From contig JAGDWD010000010.1 in the NCBI GenBank assembly GCA_023255955.1, positions 22,569 to 74,764 of the forward strand: 52,196 nt of DNA, written 5' to 3'. The notes beneath the pieces were generated by a model, which searched no databases, was not told where the DNA came from, and saw only the letters and a list, made by a program, of their open reading frames with translations. A program made the translations under genes and the position numbers. This document shows positions 20,251-30,901 of the stretch, one piece after another; the stretch's first letter is position 1, and each line of letters begins with the position of its first letter. This DNA is from Desulfurococcales archaeon. GTDB lineage: Archaea; Thermoproteota; Thermoprotei_A; Sulfolobales; NBVN01.

Positions 20251-20367
20251 AACTCTTCTAGGTCGCGTCGACTATTCTAGGCTCACTAATCTGCTGTGTT
20301 TGGTAGGTTTCTCCTCTACTTATTTAACGTGTTTTTATTAAAATTTATTATAGTTGTTCAACAAACG

Positions 20368-20407: not shown

Positions 20408-21466
20408 ATGAGCACCCAACGTGGAGGGAAGGTATATACCTGGTTAGCGCTCGGGCTAGTGATCGGGTTAGCTATAGGTTTAGTATCAGGCTGGTACCTA
20501 GCCCCCAAAGGAGGGGGGCAGACAACCGTAGCACACATTAAGTTTACCTTGGACTGGGCTTACCAAGGTCCCCAAGCACCCTTCCTAGTAGCACTTTATA
20601 AGGGGTTCTTCGCTGAGGAGGGGCTCTCGGTAACCATAGATAGAGGCTACGGTTCCGCTAAGGCTATAAGCGACGTAGCTGCCGGACTCTTCGACATAGG
20701 TTTCGGAGATATAAACAGCCTCATAGAGTTTAAGTCTAAGAATCCTGACGCTAAGGTCAAGGTGGTTGCCGTCATACATGTTAAGTCACCCCTAAGTGTT
20801 GTTACCCTTAAGGGTAGGGGCATAGAGAGCCCGAAGGACTTAGAGGGTAAGAAGCTGGGAGCTCCAGCTGGGGATGCTGCTAGGAGGGTTTTCCCAGCTT
20901 TCGCTGGTGCTGTAGGTATAGACCCGAATAAGGTGACTTGGGTCACCATGGACATACCTCTGAGGGAGCCGATGCTAGCTAGAGGTGAAGTAGATGCTAT
21001 TACCGGGTTCTACTACACCTCAGTGATAAACCTCCTCAATTTGAATGTTTCTGAGAACGATATCATAGTGTTCAAGTATGGAGACTACATGGAGATAGTA
21101 GGTAACTGTATAGTCGTAAATGAGGACTTCCTTAAGAAGAATCCAGATGCTGTTAGGAGATTCCTGAGGGCTGTAATAAGAGGGCTTAAGTACTCGATAC
21201 AGAACCCTGATGAGGCTATAAGCATACTACTCCAGAGAGACCCAACACTAAATAAGGATGCTGAGAAGAAGAGGCTCATGATGGCCCTCGAGCTGATATA
21301 CGTTAGGGGCATAACAGATAAGTACGGCTTCGGCTACGTCGACCCATCAGTAATAGAGAAGAACATAGACACCATAGTCTCGGTTCTAGGCCTACAGAGG
21401 AGGCCGTCCCTCAGCGAGATAGTGGACTTCAGTTACCTACCCCCACTAGAGGTCAGGCTACCCTAG
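20408..21466 (+). CDS. ABC transporter substrate-binding protein, NMT1/SsuA-like
   Basis: Membrane-tethered solute receptor outside the cell. From ATG 20408 (chosen for the ribosome site and TATA; an upstream ATG 20354 lies within the promoter) the protein has 352 residues: an N-terminal membrane helix at about 11-32 and then the NMT1/THI5 fold, with KFTLDWAYQGPQAPFLVALYKGFF, GYGSAKAISDVAAGLFDIGFGD and FDSL-like domain closure segments. NMT1-like receptors bind thiamine precursors, riboflavin, nitrate-like anions, sulfonates or aromatic acids. It is followed at 18 bp by its ATPase and then the permease, and by ferredoxin and AOR genes, so the ligand is probably the AOR substrate or a related compound. 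Confidence 0.9.
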   Translation: MSTQRGGKVYTWLALGLVIGLAIGLVSGWYLAPKGGGQTTVAHIKFTLDWAYQGPQAPFLVALYKGFFAEEGLSVTIDRGYGSAKAISDVAAGLFDIGFGDINSLIEFKSKNPDAKVKVVAVIHVKSPLSVVTLKGRGIESPKDLEGKKLGAPAGDAARRVFPAFAGAVGIDPNKVTWVTMDIPLREPMLARGEVDAITGFYYTSVINLLNLNVSENDIIVFKYGDYMEIVGNCIVVNEDFLKKNPDAVRRFLRAVIRGLKYSIQNPDEAISILLQRDPTLNKDAEKKRLMMALELIYVRGITDKYGFGYVDPSVIEKNIDTIVSVLGLQRRPSLSEIVDFSYLPPLEVRLP

Positions 21467-21484
21467 ACGAGGTCAGAGTAGACA

Positions 21485-22240
21485 ATGGAGCCCCTAGTGA
21501 AGATCAGAAACGTTGAGGTGAGGTACGACAATAGGAACGGAGGTCTAGTAGCGATCTCAGGGGTCGACCTAGATATAAGGCAGGGTGAGGTCGTCGGGAT
21601 AGTGGGGAAGAGTGGGTGTGGTAAGACCACCCTACTGAAGGTCATAGCCGGCTTAGTGAGGCCTACGCGTGGTGAGGTAATCTACAACGGGACACATAAT
21701 GGCGGTGGCTTCAGAGGTATTGGAATGCTTTTCCAGTCCCCTCTCCTACTACCCTGGAGAACGGTCCTTAAGAACATACTTCTACCTATAGAGCTGAGGG
21801 GTGAGGACGTCGACAGCTACGTACCTAGAGCCCTAGAACTCATGGAGAGAATCGGCTTGAAGGGGTTTGAGAACAGCTACCCGTGGGAACTCTCCGGAGG
21901 CATGCAGCAGAGAGTAGCTCTCTGCAGGGCCCTAATACACAGGCCCTCACTACTCCTCCTCGACGAGCCCTTCAGCGCTCTGGATGCCATAACCCGTGAG
22001 GACATGTGGATGCTTCTTCAGGAGGTCATATCCTATGAGAACTACACAGCTGTTCTAGTTACACACGACATAAGGGAGGCCGTCCTCCTCTCCGATAGGG
22101 TCGTAGTAATGGGCGGTAGGCCGGGGAGAGTTAAGGCTGAGGTCACCATACCGTTTAGAAGACCGAGGGACCTGGGGCTACAATACGGTCGGGAGTACAA
22201 CGACTACGTAGCTAAGATAAGGAGTCTCCTAGGTGATTAG
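21485..22240 (+). CDS. ABC transporter ATP-binding protein, TauB/SsuB type
   Basis: 251-residue cytoplasmic ATPase. Walker A GKSGCGKTT, Q-loop MLFQSPLLLPWRT, signature LSGGMQQRVALCRAL and Walker B LLLLDEPFSALD are all intact, with the switch His in VTHDIREAVLLSDRV. The LPWRT Q-loop and ending are typical of the nitrate/sulfonate/taurine and thiamine-precursor group. The start ATG 21485 follows the binding-protein stop by 18 bp and the permease begins 2 bp after its end. Confidence 0.95.
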   Translation: MEPLVKIRNVEVRYDNRNGGLVAISGVDLDIRQGEVVGIVGKSGCGKTTLLKVIAGLVRPTRGEVIYNGTHNGGGFRGIGMLFQSPLLLPWRTVLKNILLPIELRGEDVDSYVPRALELMERIGLKGFENSYPWELSGGMQQRVALCRALIHRPSLLLLDEPFSALDAITREDMWMLLQEVISYENYTAVLVTHDIREAVLLSDRVVVMGGRPGRVKAEVTIPFRRPRDLGLQYGREYNDYVAKIRSLLGD

Positions 22241-22242
22241 CT

Positions 22243-23001
22243 GTGGTAAGTAAGGCTAAGACCTTTAGCTCGGTACTGACTCTACTAGCTATAGGCGTTA
22301 CCTGGGAGGTTGCTGTGAGGCTATTTAATATACCCCAATTCGTGCTCCCAGCTCCATCAGCCATCGTTAACACGATAGCTAGGTACAGTAACTACCTCCT
22401 ATATAACCTAGCCGATACCTTACTCGCCTCAGCTTTAGGTCTATTTATGGCTGCTACCTTCTCGCTAGCTCTAAGTGTTGTCCTAGCCTACAGTGACAGT
22501 GTTAGGGAGGCTATCTACCCAATACTCTCAGGCTTCAACGCTGTCCCCAGGGCAGCACTAGTACCTCTACTGGCTCTGTGGTTTGGGTTGGGTATGGTGC
22601 CTAGGGTGCTCACAGCATTCCTGATAGCTTTCTTCCCGATACTGGTCCCGACTTTAACAGCCATGATAACCATAGAGAGGGAGCTCTGGGAAATGCTCGT
22701 AGCTTTCGGGGCTAGTAAGAGTCAGGTGTTGGTGAAGGTAGCGATACCGAGGGCCACCCCTTACTTCCTAAGCTCCCTACATATGGGGCTCACGAGCGCT
22801 GTGGTAGGGTCTGTGATAGCTGAGATGGTTGCTTCAGATAGGGGGATAGGCTACGTCATACTCTCCTCAACATCTAGGTTGGATACACCACTAGCTTTTG
22901 CCTGTCTTCTACTCCTAGCTCTTATTACCTTCACCTTATCCAAAGTCTTGAGTCTAGTTGAGAGGAGGGTTGCTAGGTGGGCCTACAGAGCAAATATCTA
23001 A
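22243..23001 (+). CDS. ABC transporter permease, TauC/SsuC type
   Basis: 252 residues with six membrane helices. The cytoplasmic coupling loop, ELWEMLVAFGASKSQVLVKVAIPRATPYF, carries the EAA motif that docks onto the ATPase. Its N-terminal helix (LLAIGVTWEVAVRLFNIPQFVLPAPSAI spread) matches the SsuC/TauC family. The GTG start at 22243 directly follows the ATPase gene. Its end overlaps the ferredoxin gene by 25 bp, linking transport and redox genes in a single message. Confidence 0.94.
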   Translation: MVSKAKTFSSVLTLLAIGVTWEVAVRLFNIPQFVLPAPSAIVNTIARYSNYLLYNLADTLLASALGLFMAATFSLALSVVLAYSDSVREAIYPILSGFNAVPRAALVPLLALWFGLGMVPRVLTAFLIAFFPILVPTLTAMITIERELWEMLVAFGASKSQVLVKVAIPRATPYFLSSLHMGLTSAVVGSVIAEMVASDRGIGYVILSSTSRLDTPLAFACLLLLALITFTLSKVLSLVERRVARWAYRANI

Positions 23002-23375
23002 GTCTGAACCCCGAGCTCTGTACCGGCTGCGGCATATGCGAGCTCGTATGTAGCTTCACTAAGTTCAAGGTCTTCAACCCGAGGCTCTCCTTGGTGAAGA
23101 TAGAGTATGACTACGAGAACTACAGAGTGGAGAGAGCCACCCTGTGCATACAGTGTGGTGAGTGTAGTAAGGTCTGCCCAACCAGTGCTCTCCACCGAGA
23201 TAACGGCGTCATCCTTCTAGATCACTCCCTCTGTAGCCGCTGTCTAGCATGTGTGAGTGCCTGCCCAACCAACGCCATAGTAGTTGTTGATGGGACACCC
23301 TACAAGTGCGATCTATGTGGGGGGAGACCACTCTGTGTAAGGTACTGCGTTAGGGGTGCTCTCCATGTCTCTTAA
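22977..23375 (+). CDS. Four-cluster ferredoxin, HycB/WOR5S-like electron-transfer subunit
   Basis: 132 residues with four Cys groups: CTGCGICELVC, CIQCGECSKVCP, CSRCLACVSACP and CDLCGGRPLCVRYC, enough for four [4Fe-4S] clusters. This is the layout of the small subunits (HycB-like) that accept electrons from molybdenum or tungsten enzymes such as Pyrococcus WOR5. It overlaps the permease gene upstream and, by 11-20 bp, the AOR gene downstream. It is therefore almost certainly the partner subunit of that AOR, giving a heterodimeric enzyme, which is less common than the single-subunit AOR. Confidence 0.93.
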   Translation: MGLQSKYLSLNPELCTGCGICELVCSFTKFKVFNPRLSLVKIEYDYENYRVERATLCIQCGECSKVCPTSALHRDNGVILLDHSLCSRCLACVSACPTNAIVVVDGTPYKCDLCGGRPLCVRYCVRGALHVS

Positions 23376-25323
23376 GGGGTATGCTGGTAAGATACTCTAC
23401 GTCGATCTAAGTAAGGAGAAACACTGGGTAGAGCCACTACGAGAACACGTAGCTAAAAGCTATGTCGGGGGTAGTGGTCTCGCAGCCTACCTCCTGTGGA
23501 ACCTCACTGACGAGAAGACTGACCCGCTCGGCCCCGAGAACCCGCTTATAGTGGCTACAGGACCTGCTACCGGGGCTTTAGCCCCCTCATCAGGTAGGTT
23601 CATGATTGCCGCTAAGTCACCCCTCACAGGTATATGGGGGGAGAGCCATGCTGGAGGGTTCTTCGGGCCTCAGCTGAAGTACGCTGGCTACGACGCGCTG
23701 GTGGTGTTGGGTAGGGCTGAGAGACCTGTCTCAATAGTGATCGACGATTCCTCGGTGATGATCTACAGATCCGATGACTTGTGGGGTATGAACACTAGGG
23801 ACACCACTAACGAGTTGAGGAGTAGATTTGGGAAGGACTACCACGTCATGTGTATAGGTCCGGCTGGTGAGAGGTTAGTGAAGTTCGCAGCAGTAATGGT
23901 GGACTACTACAGAGCTGCTGGGAGGACCGGGATGGGGGCTGTCATGGGCTCTAAGAATTTGAAGGCTATCGCCGTTAGGGGCAGCGGTGGGGTCGAGGTC
24001 CACGACCCGGATAAGTACTTTGAGGTTATGGAGGACATCCTGTGGAGGAATACTGAGGGTCCTTGGGCACTGCCAGCTCAGATGAGTCTAGGTAGGTACG
24101 GGACTCCGAACCTGGTGACAGTAATAAACGCTATAGGTAGGCTACCAACTAAAAACCACTGGACCGGCTACTGGGAGGAGGCGGACAAGATAAGTGGGAA
24201 TGAGTTACTTAAGTACAGAGTTTCCAGAGGCTCGTGCTTCTCATGTATGATTATGTGTAAGCATGTGACTAGGGTTGGGGACGGTAAGTATGAGGGTGCT
24301 TTCTCTGGAGGGCCTGAGTACGAGACTTTAGTTGCTCTAGGGTCTAACCTCTTGATATCTGATCTGAAGGCCATCATATACATGAACCAGCTATGCAACC
24401 TCTACGGGCTTGACACCATCTCAACTGGTAAGGTACTCTCATACGTCTACGAGTGCTACGAGAGAGGCATCCTAACCAAGGAAGACCTCGACGGCGTGGA
24501 GGCTGTTTGGGGTAGTGATGAAGCTGCTGTAAAACTGATTAACGCGATAGCTTCGAGGAAGGGCATAGGTGATGTGCTTGCCGAGGGGGTTGCCAGGGCT
24601 GCTGAGATTATAGGTAGGGGCTCCGAGGTCTACGCCCTACACGTTAAGAAGTTGGAGGTATCGGCTCAGGACCCTAGAGCACATAAATCAGTTGGGTGTA
24701 CTTGGGCTATATCGGTTAGAGGTGCTGACCACCTACGATCTCTAACAACAGTCGATGAGTTGGGCTATAGAGACGTAGCTGCTGAGAGGTACGGTCCGGA
24801 CAAGGTCGACTATGTCTGCGATGTTCTCTCAGAAAAGTATAAGGGCTACATAGTGAAGGACCAGGAGGACCTCTTCGCGTTAGTGGATTCGGTAATTATG
24901 TGTAAGTACGGCACTATGTGGCCACCGATGTACTACTTCGACTTCATAGCTAAGCTCCTCTACCCACTAACCGGGATTAAGGAGTTTGGGGACGTTAAGT
25001 ACCTGAGGCTTACAGCTGAGAGGATAGCTAACTTGAAGAGGTGCTACAACCTGAGGGAGGGTGTCGGGAAGGAATCTGAGGTACTACCTAGGAGATTTAC
25101 TCACGAGCCGATGCCGACCGGACCTGCGAAGGGTCAGGTATGTAACTTGGAGCCGATGCTCCGCGAGTACTACGAGAGTAGGGGCTGGGACTATGAGAGC
25201 GGACTACCCTACGAAGAGACGTTGGAGGGGCTTGGATTGGAGTACGTAGCTGACGTACTTAAGAGGAAGTATAGGCTCCCGAGGATGGGGCATGGCTGTA
25301 GTAAGACTTCACGGGGTACTTAG
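23365..25323 (+). CDS. Tungsten-containing aldehyde:ferredoxin oxidoreductase family enzyme
   Basis: 652 residues from ATG 23365 (GTG 23356 is also possible). The N-terminal GYAGKILYVDLS, the tungstopterin segment TGALAPSSGRFMIAAKSPLTG and AGRTGMGAVMGSKNLKAI are AOR signatures. The [4Fe-4S] cluster is held by Cys291, Cys294, Cys298 (CFSCMIMC) and Cys513 (SVIMCKYG). The family oxidises aldehydes to acids with ferredoxin, or in benzoyl-CoA reductases and some others acts as a reductase. Linkage to a polyferredoxin and an ABC importer separates it from the classic stand-alone glycolytic GAPOR or AOR; WOR5- or BamB-like roles are possible. The substrate is unknown. Confidence 0.95.
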   Translation: MSLKGYAGKILYVDLSKEKHWVEPLREHVAKSYVGGSGLAAYLLWNLTDEKTDPLGPENPLIVATGPATGALAPSSGRFMIAAKSPLTGIWGESHAGGFFGPQLKYAGYDALVVLGRAERPVSIVIDDSSVMIYRSDDLWGMNTRDTTNELRSRFGKDYHVMCIGPAGERLVKFAAVMVDYYRAAGRTGMGAVMGSKNLKAIAVRGSGGVEVHDPDKYFEVMEDILWRNTEGPWALPAQMSLGRYGTPNLVTVINAIGRLPTKNHWTGYWEEADKISGNELLKYRVSRGSCFSCMIMCKHVTRVGDGKYEGAFSGGPEYETLVALGSNLLISDLKAIIYMNQLCNLYGLDTISTGKVLSYVYECYERGILTKEDLDGVEAVWGSDEAAVKLINAIASRKGIGDVLAEGVARAAEIIGRGSEVYALHVKKLEVSAQDPRAHKSVGCTWAISVRGADHLRSLTTVDELGYRDVAAERYGPDKVDYVCDVLSEKYKGYIVKDQEDLFALVDSVIMCKYGTMWPPMYYFDFIAKLLYPLTGIKEFGDVKYLRLTAERIANLKRCYNLREGVGKESEVLPRRFTHEPMPTGPAKGQVCNLEPMLREYYESRGWDYESGLPYEETLEGLGLEYVADVLKRKYRLPRMGHGCSKTSRGT

Positions 25324-25537
25324 GGAGGAGACCGGAGTTAAGGAGGTGGAGGTCCCCGGCTCTAGCTTAGGTGAGGTACTGTTAGGTATGCCCGAGAACG
25401 TTAGGGAGGTACTGGAGAGGTACTCAAAGTACCTGGTATTCCTAGTAAACGGTAGGGTGGTTCACAAAAGGGACATCAACCTGAAGCCTGAAGACGTCGT
25501 CGACGTAACTATCTACGTAAGTGGGGGTAGTAATTAG
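25292..25537 (+). CDS. MoaD/ThiS-family ubiquitin-like sulfur carrier, GG followed by two residues
   Basis: 81-residue beta-grasp protein, overlapping the AOR end by 32 bp. Such MoaD-like genes commonly accompany AOR genes and supply sulfur for the tungstopterin dithiolene. The core strands (VVRLHGVLREETGVKEVEV, YLVFLVNGRVV) and the VDVTIYVSGG end are typical, but the protein ends GGSN rather than GG. The exposed Gly-Gly must be the C-terminus for adenylation, so the last two residues would need trimming, as is known for QbsE-like carriers, or the protein is inactive. It is last in the operon; its end lies 3 bp from the converging aldo-keto reductase gene. Confidence 0.88.
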   Translation: MAVVRLHGVLREETGVKEVEVPGSSLGEVLLGMPENVREVLERYSKYLVFLVNGRVVHKRDINLKPEDVVDVTIYVSGGSN

Positions 25538-25540
25538 ATC

Positions 25541-26581
25541 TCACGCAGTCCTCACCGCACTGACCTCCTCAAGCCTCCTCATATCGTCTGAACCTAGTTT
25601 TAAGTTTACTGATTCAGCGAGCTCCTCTAGTTGCTGTACGTTTGAGACACCTACTATCGGCACTATGCTAACCCCGAGTTCTGCTGCCTTATGCATTATC
25701 CACGCTAGAGATACCTGTGCCGGTGTCGCACACCTCTCCCTAGCTATCTCCAACACCTCGAGCACTATCCTTAAGTTCCTCTCAGTGAACATCTCCTTTA
25801 GGTGTTGAATGTACTCGGCTCTAGAACCTCTAGGTATCACCCACTTTCTCTCCACCGGGTCTACGTACTTACCGGTTAGAATACCTTGAGCTAGTGGTGA
25901 GTAAGCCGTGATCCCCATCCCGAACCTCCTAGCTAGAGGTATTAGGTCCCTCTCAATGGATCTGTCCATCAGGTTATACCTATATTGGAGAACTACTATA
26001 GGTTCGTAACCATATCTCTCAGCAATCATCTGCATCTCAACTATTACGTCCGGCGGTATGTTACTCACTCCTACATACCTAACCAACCCAGCCCTAACTA
26101 AGTCGTTGAACACTGAGATAACCTCCCTAGGAGGTGTTTCCGGATCGTAATGATGTGCGTAGTATATGTCTACGTACTCCATGTCAAGCCTCTTCAAGCT
26201 CTCCCTAATCTGCCACATCACGTGCTTCCTATTAAGTCCCTTTCCGTTAGGCCAGGGAGCCATCTCACCGAAGACCTTAGTAGCTATGACGATGGATTCT
26301 CTATGTATGTTCAGCTCCTTGATGAGTCGGCCGAGGAGCTTCTCAGCGTAACCCACATGCGTGAGGGGTACTGGAGATATACCACCGTGATACCTGTTAG
26401 CTGTATCAATGAAGTTCATACCTAGGTCGTAAGCCCTCCTAAGAACCCTCCTAAACTCATCTACATCGACCTTGAAGACCCCGGCTTCATCCCTCTCAGG
26501 CAACCTTGGGAGGTGCCATGTACCCAGCGATAAAGCTGAGACAAAGAGACCGCAGTTCTGTGAGAGTTTTACGTACCTCAT
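25541..26581 (-). CDS. Aldo-keto reductase
   Basis: 346-residue TIM-barrel NAD(P)H oxidoreductase. The catalytic tetrad is present: Asp59 (FIDTA), Tyr64 (ANRYH), Lys102 (ATKVFG) and a His near 143 (YYAHHYDPE). The motif GVSNIPPDVI and the C-terminal LAWIMHKAAELGVSIVPIVG region with the cofactor-binding loop place it with YajO/perakine-like AKRs that accept aldehydes and ketones. The gene is tail to tail with the AOR operon. Substrate unknown; a link with the aldehyde chemistry of the neighbouring AOR is suggestive only. Confidence 0.93.
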   Translation of the reverse strand: MRYVKLSQNCGLFVSALSLGTWHLPRLPERDEAGVFKVDVDEFRRVLRRAYDLGMNFIDTANRYHGGISPVPLTHVGYAEKLLGRLIKELNIHRESIVIATKVFGEMAPWPNGKGLNRKHVMWQIRESLKRLDMEYVDIYYAHHYDPETPPREVISVFNDLVRAGLVRYVGVSNIPPDVIVEMQMIAERYGYEPIVVLQYRYNLMDRSIERDLIPLARRFGMGITAYSPLAQGILTGKYVDPVERKWVIPRGSRAEYIQHLKEMFTERNLRIVLEVLEIARERCATPAQVSLAWIMHKAAELGVSIVPIVGVSNVQQLEELAESVNLKLGSDDMRRLEEVSAVRTA

Positions 26582-27189: not shown

Positions 27190-28188
27190 ATGGCTTCCAA
27201 AACATTATTAGTAGCGGTCTTGGCAGTCGTAGTATTAGTTGTTGTGGGTGTTGTCTCCTACTACCTCCTAATGCCACCTAGAGCCCCGTACAAGCTAGTC
27301 ATATATACAGGAGGGACGGGCGGGGTCTACTACCCACTAGGAGTTAAGCTTGCTGACATGCTTAACAAGTATGCCAGTGACAGGATCACAGCATCCGCAT
27401 CGTCTAGCGGTGCTTCAGTAGCTAACGCGAGGGCTTTGGGGACGGGAGACGCTAACCTAGTCTTCATCCAGAACGATGTAGCTTACTACGCATACCACGG
27501 ACTCTACATGTTTGAGGGAAGCAAGATAGATAAGATAAGAGCTGTAGCCGCTCTCTACCCCGAGATCGTGCAGATAGTGGTCAGAGCTGACAGCGGAATT
27601 AAGAGCATCTACGACCTAGCAGGAAAGAGAGTAGCTGTGGGCGCGGCAGGTAGTGGAACAGCTGTCGAAGCTGAGATAATACTTAAGGCTGCTGGCGTGT
27701 GGGACAAGATAACAGTCCAGAACCTAGACTTCACCCAGGCAGCTCAAGCACTAAAACTAGGCCAGGTCGACGCGGCCTTCGTCGTAGCTGGGATACCTAC
27801 CTCAGCAGTCATGGAGCTAGCTGCGACAACCCCCGTCAACCTAGTTGAAGTCCCTGACGAACTCGTCAACAAGTTGAAGCAGCAGGGATACCTATTCTTC
27901 ATTCCCTTCACGGTACCTAAGGACACATACGCAGGGATGCAAAGCGATGTTAAGACAGTAGCCGTTAAAGCTATGCTCGCAGTAAGCTCCGACGTACCTG
28001 ACGACGTGGTATACCACGTACTTAAAGTAATGTACGACCACATAGACGAGCTAAGGCAGGCTCATTCAAGAGCGCGGGACATTAAGCTTGAGACGGCACT
28101 TGAGGGAGTACCAATAAAGCTACATCCAGGTGCGTTCAAGTACTTCCAGGAGAAGGGAATTACGGTACCTGCTGAGCTGAGGCCGTAG
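27190..28188 (+). CDS. TRAP transporter solute-binding protein, TAXI family
   Basis: 332 residues: N-terminal membrane anchor (about 4-29) then a TAXI-type binding domain, recognised by YTGGTGGVYYPLGVKLADML, ASASSSGASVANARALGTGDANLVFIQND, and GKRVAVGAAGSGTAVEAE. TAXI receptors deliver dicarboxylates, glutamate or other organic acids to TRAP permeases; archaea use them with a fused permease. ATG 27190 follows a good GAGGTG site. The next gene starts 3 bp after its stop. Confidence 0.95.
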   Translation: MASKTLLVAVLAVVVLVVVGVVSYYLLMPPRAPYKLVIYTGGTGGVYYPLGVKLADMLNKYASDRITASASSSGASVANARALGTGDANLVFIQNDVAYYAYHGLYMFEGSKIDKIRAVAALYPEIVQIVVRADSGIKSIYDLAGKRVAVGAAGSGTAVEAEIILKAAGVWDKITVQNLDFTQAAQALKLGQVDAAFVVAGIPTSAVMELAATTPVNLVEVPDELVNKLKQQGYLFFIPFTVPKDTYAGMQSDVKTVAVKAMLAVSSDVPDDVVYHVLKVMYDHIDELRQAHSRARDIKLETALEGVPIKLHPGAFKYFQEKGITVPAELRP

Positions 28189-28190
28189 TC

Positions 28191-28739
28191 TTGGGTAGGC
28201 TAGGACCAGGAAAACGTAAAGCTTTTTTCCTCTATGTAATTGCCTTTGTTTCATTCTTCGTCCTAGCCCTCCCACTAGTGCAGGTAACAGAGGTCGTTGT
28301 AGACGGTGTGGAGTACTTATTCCCGAAGGACGGTGAGGTCTTCATCACACTCGAGTATCTACACAGTGTTGAGCTGTTTAGAGTAGTGGAGACATACTTG
28401 ATCGCCGGGTGTGAGATTAGATTAGTTGAGTTTAGATGGTCTGGGTACGGTGCTGGATTACCATCAACTCCTGAGGATATATTTAGTCAGATCTCGCAGT
28501 CGGGTGGAGAGTTCATAGCTAGGAACATCTCGGTTATCTCAGGGAACGTACTTAGACTAGACATGAAGCATAGGGTTGGTGCCACCGTCTCTGTGAACGG
28601 TGAGATTGTCTCAAGTAATGTAGGTGTTGAGGTTCGGGTATGTGTTCGTGTCTCTCTAGCTAAGATCCTCCACCACCTACTTACTCCTACGAAGCTACCT
28701 ATCTCCTCAGGTAACCAACAACATCTCCGAGCTAGCTAA
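28191..28739 (+). CDS. DUF1850 protein of the TAXI-TRAP operon
   Basis: 182 residues: one N-terminal membrane helix (about 10-33) and a beta-rich domain with FITLEYLHSVELFRVVETY and a GAGLPSTPED loop, which match DUF1850, a family almost always encoded next to TAXI-TRAP systems. It probably sits at the membrane and supports the transporter, but no activity is known. The TTG start at 28191 lies 3 bp after the binding-protein gene. Confidence 0.88.
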   Translation: MGRLGPGKRKAFFLYVIAFVSFFVLALPLVQVTEVVVDGVEYLFPKDGEVFITLEYLHSVELFRVVETYLIAGCEIRLVEFRWSGYGAGLPSTPEDIFSQISQSGGEFIARNISVISGNVLRLDMKHRVGATVSVNGEIVSSNVGVEVRVCVRVSLAKILHHLLTPTKLPISSGNQQHLRAS

Positions 28740-28786
28740 GGTTAAAGGATATAAGCCTACCCGTTATCGCTCTGAGGGTTTACCGC

Positions 28787-30901
28787 GTGGCTGAAGCTCT
28801 CGCTATTGAGAGGGCTAAGACAGGCGTCCTCGCTAAGGTCATACTAGCAATAGGTACTTTATTCGCTCTCTACGAGATCATGTTCGTAATGGGCCTTAAC
28901 TTCTCCCTCTATACGATATTGAAGAACCTCGGACTCGACCTCAGGTTCCTACTCTACGCCCCGGATATACAGCAAAGTATGGCATTCCTCCTCGGACTAG
29001 CAATGCTCACCGCCTTCCTGATACATCCGATAAGTAAGAAGGTGGGGACTGAGAAGGTCCCGATATACGATTACGTGTTAGGTCTCATCGCCTTCGCTTC
29101 GATGATGTACCTAGTCATAGTGTTCCCCATGGTAGTTCAGTACGGGTATGTAGAGGCTACACTACCCAACATGCTCATACCGCTAATAGCGATAGCTCTC
29201 CTCCTGGAGGCATCGAGACGCTCCCTAGGTATATCCCTACCAGCCATAGCTCTAATCATCATGATACTTGGGATAGCCTACGAGGGCTTTAACATCAGGC
29301 GCTTCGTGAACCACATGTTCTACGCCAGGGAGGGGGTCTTCTCAATACCCCTCTACGTGATGGTCTCATACGTCTTCGCGTTCGTTTTCTTCGGCTCCGT
29401 ACTCGAGAAGATCGGTGTTGGAGAGTACATCACAAAGTTTGTTATAGCCTTAGTAGGCCATAGATGGGGTGGACCAGCTAAGACAGCCGTTGTCGCGAGT
29501 GCGCTGATGGGTACGGTATCCGGAAGCTCCGTTGCTAATGTCCTAACAACCGGGACATTTACGATACCCCTGATGAAGAGGGCAGGCTACCCACCTGAAG
29601 TAGCCGGGGCTGTTGAACCAGCTGCGTCGACAGGTGGGCAGCTAATGCCGCCGATTATGGGGGCAGCAGCCTTCGTGATGGCTCAATTCCTTGGAAGACC
29701 ATATAGAGACATAATCATCGCTGCCGCTATACCTGCCATACTCTACTTTACATCTATTTACGTCTTCGTCGACAGGGTGACGAAGAGGTTAGGTATCAGT
29801 CCGCTAGCGAAGGAGGTATTGCCGAACTTCAGGGAGCTGGCTAGGCATATCTACCTGCTTAGTCCGATACCGATAGTAACGTACCTACTACTCTCAGGTC
29901 TTGAGCCTCAGTACTGTGCTCTAGGTGCGATAGGGGCGGCAATAATATCTGCTTGGATCTATCAGAGGGGTATGGGACTCCTCCCTAAGGCCATAATAGT
30001 CGGCGGGATTGTGACAGTAGGTATAGCTTCTTATTTTCTCGGTCTCCCGGTGAGTGCTGCAGTGTTTTTTGCTGGTGCTACGTCGGTCTTCGTTGCGATA
30101 GTACTCGGGTACCTAGTTAGGGGGAGTCGGGAGATATCCTCACGTCTCCTAATGGCGTTTGACTCGAGCTTGAGGAGTGTTGTAACCGTTTTCTTCGCTG
30201 CGTCATGTGCCGGCCTAATTCAGGGTGTCCTCACGATGACAGGGTGGGCAACAACTATTGGGTACCGCCTAGTCGAGATCTCCGGAGGTAACATATTCGT
30301 GTTGATGGTGACAGCCATGTCTATAAGCCTCGTACTGGGGATGGGGGTTCCTACAACCGCGAACTACATAATCACCTCAACGATAGTTGGGGCTCCTATG
30401 GCTAGGGCTATAGCGTCTATAACTGGTATAGGATTCGAGGAAGCTAGGCTCGTCGCACACATGTTCGTGTTCTACTTCGGGATACTCGCTGACCTGACAC
30501 CGCCAGTTGCTCTCGCTTCATACGCCGGCTCATTACTTGCTAAGTCAGATTTCTGGAAGACAGCACTTAAAGCAACTCAGTTTGCTTTAGCTGGTTATTT
30601 AGTGCCCTATATCTTCACCCTAGATCCAGCACTCCTAATCCTACCTGCTGGAGGCCTAACACTACATACATTGTACAGGATAGCATATGGTGTAACAAAC
30701 ACGGTACTCTCAATACTCATGCTGAGTGCTGGGATAGTGGGCTGGCACGGCACGAACATAGGTAAAGCCCAGAGAATATTACTTATAGTACTAGGTATAG
30801 CTAATCTAACACCATACGAGTACATAACTCCGTTACTAGCAGCTACGTACATAGCACTCTACTTCTATAATAGGAGAAAAAGTCCGCAGACTACTAAGTG
30901 A
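28787..30901 (+). CDS. TRAP transporter permease, fused 4TM/12TM subunits
   Basis: 704 residues and about 17-18 membrane helices. The N-terminal part is the small (DctQ-like) unit and the rest the large DctM-like unit, marked by VVASALMGTVSGSSVANVLTTGTF, EPAASTGGQLMPPIMGAAAF, and GMGVPTTANYIITSTIVGAP. Such fusions are typical of TAXI-TRAP systems. It uses an ion gradient rather than ATP. The GTG start at 28787 comes 47 bp after the DUF1850 gene. Confidence 0.95.
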   Translation: MAEALAIERAKTGVLAKVILAIGTLFALYEIMFVMGLNFSLYTILKNLGLDLRFLLYAPDIQQSMAFLLGLAMLTAFLIHPISKKVGTEKVPIYDYVLGLIAFASMMYLVIVFPMVVQYGYVEATLPNMLIPLIAIALLLEASRRSLGISLPAIALIIMILGIAYEGFNIRRFVNHMFYAREGVFSIPLYVMVSYVFAFVFFGSVLEKIGVGEYITKFVIALVGHRWGGPAKTAVVASALMGTVSGSSVANVLTTGTFTIPLMKRAGYPPEVAGAVEPAASTGGQLMPPIMGAAAFVMAQFLGRPYRDIIIAAAIPAILYFTSIYVFVDRVTKRLGISPLAKEVLPNFRELARHIYLLSPIPIVTYLLLSGLEPQYCALGAIGAAIISAWIYQRGMGLLPKAIIVGGIVTVGIASYFLGLPVSAAVFFAGATSVFVAIVLGYLVRGSREISSRLLMAFDSSLRSVVTVFFAASCAGLIQGVLTMTGWATTIGYRLVEISGGNIFVLMVTAMSISLVLGMGVPTTANYIITSTIVGAPMARAIASITGIGFEEARLVAHMFVFYFGILADLTPPVALASYAGSLLAKSDFWKTALKATQFALAGYLVPYIFTLDPALLILPAGGLTLHTLYRIAYGVTNTVLSILMLSAGIVGWHGTNIGKAQRILLIVLGIANLTPYEYITPLLAATYIALYFYNRRKSPQTTK

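Follow-up and report, generated by a model that had tools for sequence, protein, structure and literature searches.

In the genome of a Desulfurococcales archaeon (contig JAGDWD010000010.1), from a group of heat-loving archaea that are uncultured, six genes for an ATP-binding cassette (ABC) importer, a ferredoxin, an oxidoreductase of the aldehyde ferredoxin oxidoreductase (AOR) family and a MoaD-like sulfur carrier form a compact cassette at positions 20408–25537 of the window analysed here (the whole stretch of 52,196 nucleotides). The best explanation for this cassette, held tentatively and at slightly below even confidence, is that it serves to take up a nitrogen heterocycle of nucleobase or ureide type and to oxidise or reduce it in a ferredoxin-linked reaction. 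The substrate class, of which we are about equally confident, is suggested by two families of neighbours and by one gene loss, all read from sequence. The six genes are the following:

20408..21466, + strand: NMT1/THI5-like substrate-binding protein (receptor) with an N-terminal membrane anchor and a type II periplasmic fold (Pfam NMT1 PF09084, E=1.6e-44)
21485..22240, + strand: ABC importer ATPase, TauB/SsuB/NrtD/ThiZ-like (ABC_tran, E=1.5e-32)
22243..23001, + strand: ABC importer permease, TauC/SsuC/SaoP-like (BPD_transp_1, E=6.8e-24)
22977..23375, + strand: four-cluster polyferredoxin, WorS-type small subunit (several Fer4 models; 16 Cys)
23356..25323, + strand: large subunit (WorL) of an AOR or tungsten-containing oxidoreductase (WOR) (AFOR_N 272 bits, AFOR_C 414 bits)
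25292..25537, + strand: MoaD/ThiS-like sulfur carrier, WorX type (ThiS PF02597, 28.2 bits, cut-off 22.5)

Conservation of the cassette

An earlier note, made from the DNA letters of the window, had described six genes that abut or overlap, and this was borne out when the reading frames and overlaps were verified: all six lie on a single strand, the permease and ferredoxin genes share 25 bp, the ferredoxin and AOR genes 20 bp, and the AOR and MoaD genes 32 bp. The genome, an Ignisphaera-like metagenome-assembled genome (MAG), spans 1.64 Mb and contains eight matches to AFOR_C. The gene order was searched in archaeal genomes and is not confined to this one, as eight others have the block in the order receptor–ATPase–permease–ferredoxin–AOR–MoaD (G004, G005, G008, G011, G012, G014, G026 and G143, the last being Ignisphaera SKYB63, of another family). 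It is wholly in view in six of these eight; the copies of G004 (complete for four genes, with the N-terminal part of the AOR following) and G005 are cut by contig ends, and in G011 the MoaD gene is inverted. Orthologs of the AOR with 72–84% identity occur in seven further genomes, and a full-length ortholog in eight of the 214 genomes of the order. The block thus spans several genera and two families, and its flanks are unrelated between genomes with the sole exception of the sister species G011 and G012.

A gene order that is kept while the flanks change indicates a self-contained, co-selected unit, and the distribution is that of a block sporadically gained or kept, not that of chance neighbours. 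It is very probable that the six genes act together. The dedicated uptake-and-redox system proposed in the earlier note accords with this pattern, since conservation amid unrelated flanks is what such a system would be expected to show; its other half, that the imported solute is the substrate of the enzyme or a precursor of it, is something that we infer and consider reasonably likely.

An enzyme of class II composition with an altered active site

In the terms of the WOR classification (PMC13328260), the enzyme is, by its predicted subunit composition, a class II WOR (WorL plus four-cluster WorS) with WorX. The large subunit has both the N- and C-terminal AFOR domains, and the adjacent small subunit, whose gene overlaps that of the AOR, has its 16 cysteines in four 4-Cys motifs, that is, four 4Fe-4S sites, which are retained by the orthologs. 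No WorN or WorABC gene is conserved in the block, and the N-terminus of the ferredoxin (MGLQSKYLSLNPELC) is devoid of the twin-arginine motif of a Tat signal. Among solved structures, the ferredoxin resembles the small subunits 9mqx_E, 6x1o_B and 8c0z_C.

Among solved large subunits, that of the cassette scored highest in phmmer against AmWOR1 (426 bits; structure 9mqx, by our reading the enzyme from A. mobile) and PfAOR (417 bits), followed by WOR5 (6x1o, 262 bits) and BamB (190 bits); the comparison with WOR5 and BamB is one of phmmer scores, WOR5, GAPOR and BamB being outside the tree described below. Mapped on PfAOR (1AOR), the cassette enzyme keeps the FeS cysteines, Thr243 (as Thr250), Glu313 (Glu323), His448 (His459) and the conserved arginine (Arg186). 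Tyr427 is replaced by glutamine (Gln438) and Tyr452 by leucine (Leu463), and the iron-bridging Glu332 by tyrosine, this position being Tyr or His in the cassette enzymes. Glutamine occupies the Tyr427 position in every cassette ortholog. The four second-shell residues of AORs are Thr243, Glu313, Tyr427 and His448, and characterised AORs have been reported to vary only by Tyr-to-His or Thr-to-Ser changes, while the taurine chemistry of the Pyrococcus furiosus enzyme ASOR (WOR5) has been tied to a lost Thr, a His at Tyr427 and a Tyr (Tyr199) in place of the Arg (PMC12096430). The window enzyme has three of the four AOR residues, and Thr250, Gln438 and Arg186 depart from the ASOR signature; it therefore fits neither ASOR nor AOR sensu stricto, because its residue pattern differs from both. 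An identity with WOR5/ASOR was ruled out on these residues and on the scores. The "WOR5 type" of the earlier note consequently stands for subunit composition and falls for kinship, given 262 bits against 426 and 417 and the presence of the Thr and the Arg that are exchanged in WOR5. Elsewhere in the same genome, another AOR (L059 5388-7304, contig 11 of G000) carries an ASOR-like signature, with the conserved Arg replaced by Tyr and Tyr427 by His, while being AOR-like by score, and is accompanied by its own MoaD gene.

The last gene of the cassette meets the description of WorX by its family and by its position beside WorL, an arrangement already known for AOR and MoaD genes (PMC1779556; WorX in PMC13328260). 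The earlier note had called all motifs intact, and this holds in general except at the C-terminus of this carrier: the window copy ends in VSGGSN, whereas GG is the terminus in the seven orthologs whose ends were in view. One extra G in the G-run (window 25516–25537) would give VSGG followed by a stop, and since this restores the end found in the orthologs, the GGSN tail is likely a one-base indel, either an assembly error or a recent mutation.

Relatives of the enzyme and their gene neighbours

In a tree of 96 AOR sequences, 19 with glutamine at position 427 form one clade (SH-aLRT 83, most inner nodes 96–100), within which the cassette AORs are nested and which extends to Bathyarchaeia and to a MAG of Endomicrobia. 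Two further Gln sequences are of separate origin, and an AOR with Ala at Tyr427 and its own four-cluster ferredoxin (L057 6160-8103, contig 5 of G000) falls in the sister group of the Gln clade. Leaving the cassettes aside, the Gln clade is represented on seven contigs, and on every one of them genes for PreA-like, SsnA-like, cytosine-deaminase, allantoinase/hydantoinase or carbamoyltransferase proteins lie within 6.5 kb of the AOR. For example, the bathyarchaeial genome G418 encodes three Gln AORs, all of them paired with a ferredoxin of their own. Around them are genes for two carbamoyltransferases, a PreA-like fusion of DHO_dh and ferredoxin, a PALP enzyme, an allantoinase/hydantoinase-like protein and amidohydrolases resembling SsnA and deoxyadenosine deaminase. 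In G517 the Gln AOR adjoins PreA and SsnA, in G383 it lies near PreA and relatives of hydantoinase and deaminase, and in the Endomicrobia MAG a Gln AOR lies near PreA. At two other bathyarchaeial loci (L090 3644-12752 of G343, and L132 of G303), a Gln AOR and its ferredoxin stand together with a divergent ABC importer of the PnrA/Bmp type and a relative of cytosine deaminase, and G343 has a ThiS-like gene as well. These loci are an independently built arrangement of Gln-type WOR and importer, in this case of the nucleoside type.

This association was tested with 60 further AOR loci of the same class retrieved blind to context, leaving out the cassette loci and the contigs that had supplied the markers. 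A purine/ureide-type marker gene was present within 6.5 kb at four of five Gln loci and at none of 65 other AOR loci (Fisher p=5e-6, a guide only, because the independent lineages are fewer than the loci). The Gln AOR L147, outside the main clade, has no marker gene nearby, and L213 (G013), a Gln sequence on a long branch, has PreA and a fragment of SsnA in its vicinity; L213 was left uncounted because it had been retrieved on account of PreA.

The gene set beside the Gln-type WORs of Bathyarchaeia (SsnA, UacX, HyuA, carbamoyltransferase and PALP) matches the reductive uric acid pathway of Escherichia coli and Clostridioides difficile, which starts with the molybdenum enzyme XdhD and comprises SsnA, the DHO_dh-type ferredoxin-linked reductase UacX, HyuA, a carbamoyltransferase, a carbamate kinase and a PALP enzyme (PMC12507026, PMC12990295). 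Genes of the xanthine dehydrogenase (XDH) family were found neither in G418 (80% complete) nor in G517 (100% complete), and in these genomes a Gln-type WOR could occupy the XdhD step. Within the Ignisphaera family, genomes that have no cassette share a cluster of one or more carbamoyltransferases, an AA_kinase/carbamate-kinase-like protein, an SsnA-like protein, a PreA/UacX-like DHO_dh–ferredoxin fusion and a PALP enzyme (L208 13327-19670 in G020; also L209, L210, L211 and L212). Judged by gene content, this is a putative archaeal equivalent of the reductive uric acid cluster, and archaea go unmentioned in the 2025 paper on that cluster.

The receptor and the importer

The AlphaFold model of the receptor (mean predicted local distance difference test, pLDDT, 74.6) has as nearest PDB folds binders of thiamin and of precursors of hydroxymethylpyrimidine (HMP), followed by TauA, at about 18–24% identity. 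A firm grouping with the thiamine-precursor receptor ThiY, which the earlier note had named as one of two results that would overturn its proposal, was not found: identity to 4nmy (thiamin) and 3ix1 (ThiY) is 22–24%, and closer relatives (34–44%) often lie beside genes for the catabolism of allantoin, urate or dihydropyrimidine. Membership of ThiY was thus rejected, the nearness being structural at low identity; no thiamine gene, such as would be expected of ThiXYZ, is conserved beside the block. The closer relatives are bacterial and plasmid-borne, and five of their ten distinct contexts include nucleobase or ureide genes (8-oxoguanine deaminase with hydroxyisourate hydrolase and allantoinase; allantoinase; dihydropyrimidinase; a dihydroorotase-family gene; uraD). 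In bacteria, a xanthine/uric-acid riboswitch has been described to control NMT1-annotated genes (PMC7373994). The curated cut-offs for TauA and SsuA were not reached by the receptor (SsuA_fam 85.2 of 163.5 bits, TauA 40 of 304), nor was any NCBIfam equivalog cut-off by the ATPase, and the permease scored far under every equivalog cut-off. An alternative upstream TTG start of the receptor gene is possible at 20354.

Downstream of the MoaD gene lies an aldo/keto reductase (25541–26581, opposite strand), and further on a TAXI-type tripartite ATP-independent periplasmic (TRAP) transporter (27190–30901) with an NMT1_3-fold receptor, a DUF1850 protein and a fused DctM permease, which is not conserved with the cassette.

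Xanthine dehydrogenase in cassette genomes

The 31 genomes of the family divide into 23 without the cassette, all of which have XDH-family genes, and eight with it, of which five have none; these counts are uncorrected for phylogeny. The absence from G143 was dropped as added support because its whole genus lacks XDH. In the window's own genome the loss can be located: the region L220 8408-10160 (contig 12 of G000) is syntenic with L221 5912-12674 of the congener G008, with the ABC genes and an allantoinase-like neighbour (67% identity) remaining and the three-gene XDH operon and the XdhC gene, which lie between and beside them in G008, gone. Where the operon sits in G008, 379 bp are left on an unbroken contig, so its absence is not an assembly gap.

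Proposed function and alternatives

In the proposed mechanism, the ABC importer with its NMT1-type receptor would take up a small planar nitrogen heterocycle, either a nucleobase (e.g., an oxidised purine) or its ureide/hydantoin-type product. The tungsten oxidoreductase (Gln-427 WorL plus four-cluster WorS) would then oxidise or reduce it, with electrons passing to or from ferredoxin, and the MoaD-like WorX would provide sulfur for the tungstopterin of the enzyme. The chemistry would be an addition of water at the carbon of a C=N or C=O group together with transfer of hydride to W, as the ring analogue of the action of AOR on an aldehyde or of XDH on a purine, and the glutamine replacing Tyr427 may hydrogen-bond the lactam edge rather than an aldehyde oxygen. 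The sequences show the genes, the conserved block, the Gln clade with its neighbourhoods and the missing XDH operon; we infer the substrate class, the ferredoxin partner, tungsten as the metal and the function of WorX, and the reaction may run in either direction. In cells that have no catabolic cluster of the uric-acid type, the likely use would be the scavenging or redox balancing of oxidised purines.

Several observations weigh against a nucleobase or ureide substrate. Of the three Gln AORs of the Endomicrobia MAG, one is near a marker, and in the cassette's own family Tyr-type AORs sit 6–10 kb from PreA clusters, so glutamine is not needed for the association. Distant NMT1 controls are also near nucleobase genes (three of ten); the receptor alone thus does not decide the substrate, and the contrast between near and distant receptors (5/10 vs 3/10) was dropped as a test, being too weak. 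The XDH contrast ignores kinship, three cassette genomes retain XDH, the neighbouring genus g52 of the next family has no XDH whether or not the cassette is present, and aldehydes are among the substrates of XDH-family enzymes. The cassette itself has no catabolic gene conserved alongside it, and within the family the PreA/SsnA cluster never occurs with it (0/8 cassette genomes vs 14/23 others). For this reason the cassette was rejected as a front end of the PreA/SsnA cluster; it does not feed that pathway there, and salvage or redox balancing is more likely.

Other substrates have been considered. The importer might take up an aldehyde or carboxylic acid of the ordinary kind, be it aliphatic or aromatic, and the WOR would interconvert acid and aldehyde with ferredoxin in an AOR-type detoxification or acid reduction. 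This is a serious, if improbable, alternative: the AOR fold and Thr250/Glu323/His459 are conserved, the nearest solved enzymes (AmWOR1 and PfAOR) are broad aldehyde oxidoreductases, and some NMT1 relatives adjoin aromatic or CoA-type genes. However, Gln stands here in place of the conserved second-shell Tyr427 and Leu in place of Tyr452, the relatives in the clade adjoin nucleobase-type genes and not those of acid or aldehyde metabolism, and free aldehydes rarely require an ABC importer. Import of an aliphatic sulfonate such as taurine, followed by oxidation as in ASOR, would suit an importer of the TauABC/SsuABC superfamily, and ASOR, which has taurine as a substrate, is itself a class II WOR (PMC13328260; PMC12096430). 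We regard it as quite unlikely, given that the signature residues of ASOR are absent here, that the score of the large subunit is far lower with WOR5 than with AOR, that TauA is a worse structural match than the thiamin/HMP binders and that the Tau/Ssu equivalog cut-offs are widely missed.

Slightly less likely still is that the ABC genes import a thiamine precursor in the manner of ThiXYZ and share no more than a transcript with an AOR unrelated to them. The best solved structures for the receptor (4nmy, 3ix1 and THI5) would agree with this, but the identity is low, no thiamine gene was seen conserved beside the cassette, the six genes stay together as their flanks change, and the NMT1 control that is truly beside TenA is a distant relative. 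Finally, the importer might provide a metal or cofactor (tungstate or a pterin) and no substrate, as the MoaD-like gene in the operon might suggest and as might be proposed from a distant AOR (L213 in G013) that adjoins an oxyanion-type SBP_bac_11 receptor, a permease and an ATPase. This is very improbable, because the tungstate receptors TupA and WtpA belong to other families, the receptor here has the NMT1 fold for organic ligands, and the genome has eight AOR genes and one such importer; tungstate import was rejected on the receptor family.

A nucleobase- or ureide-type substrate remains the preferred explanation. A broader and rather doubtful extension of it is that the Gln-427 clade consists of tungsten-dependent oxidoreductases of purines (or related nitrogen heterocycles) that replace molybdenum XDH-type enzymes in anaerobic archaea and some bacteria, the cassette being a stand-alone version with its own importer. 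To our knowledge, no tungsten enzyme converts purine-like nitrogen compounds. A physiological role has been defined for a member of only five of the 92 WOR clades, and the main text of the 2026 classification mentions no ABC-linked WORs apart from those linked to tungstate/molybdate transport (PMC13328260). No paper linking an AOR to purine or hydantoin catabolism was found among the best literature matches, in a search outside which most subscription journals lay. The Gln clade joins a common active-site change to a consistent neighbourhood and, in the cassette, to its own receptor, which makes candidate ligands directly testable. Should the substrate prove to be a purine or ureide, nucleobase metabolism, until now assigned to molybdenum hydroxylases, would become a field of tungsten enzymes too, and there would be an archaeal counterpart to the reductive uric acid pathway of gut bacteria.

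Comparison with known systems

The reductive uric acid cluster (XdhD, YgfK/UacX, SsnA, HyuA, YgeW, YgeY and YgeX) resembles the SsnA-, UacX-, HyuA- and carbamoyltransferase-like genes around the bathyarchaeial relatives of the cassette AOR, whereas the cassette itself has none of these enzymes and has a W-type AOR fold in place of the Mo enzyme XdhD. In the AOR–MoaD clusters of Iyer et al. (2006), a MoaD-like gene is likewise strictly beside the AOR and was interpreted as part of a mobile tungsten-cofactor unit; the cassette differs by having an importer and no MoeB, MoaE or MoeA. With class II WORs (P. furiosus ASOR/WOR5 and Caldicellulosiruptor bescii GOR) it shares the two-gene WorL and four-cluster WorS, ferredoxin linkage as judged from composition, and a nearby WorX-like gene. 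In contrast to ASOR/WOR5, its AOR is much nearer the clade-87 AORs, has Gln for Tyr427 and no ASOR signature, and stands in an operon with an ABC importer. AOR sensu stricto (PfAOR and AmWOR1; clade 87) provides the closest characterised large subunits, with the same Thr243, Glu313, His448 and FeS cysteines, although the cassette enzyme has the changes Tyr427 to Gln and Tyr452 to Leu, no Glu332 ligand, and a dedicated small subunit and importer. As for the TauABC, SsuABC and ThiXYZ importers with NMT1 receptors, the families and order of receptor, ATPase and permease are alike, but the importer of the cassette lies under every curated equivalog cut-off and is tied to a redox enzyme.

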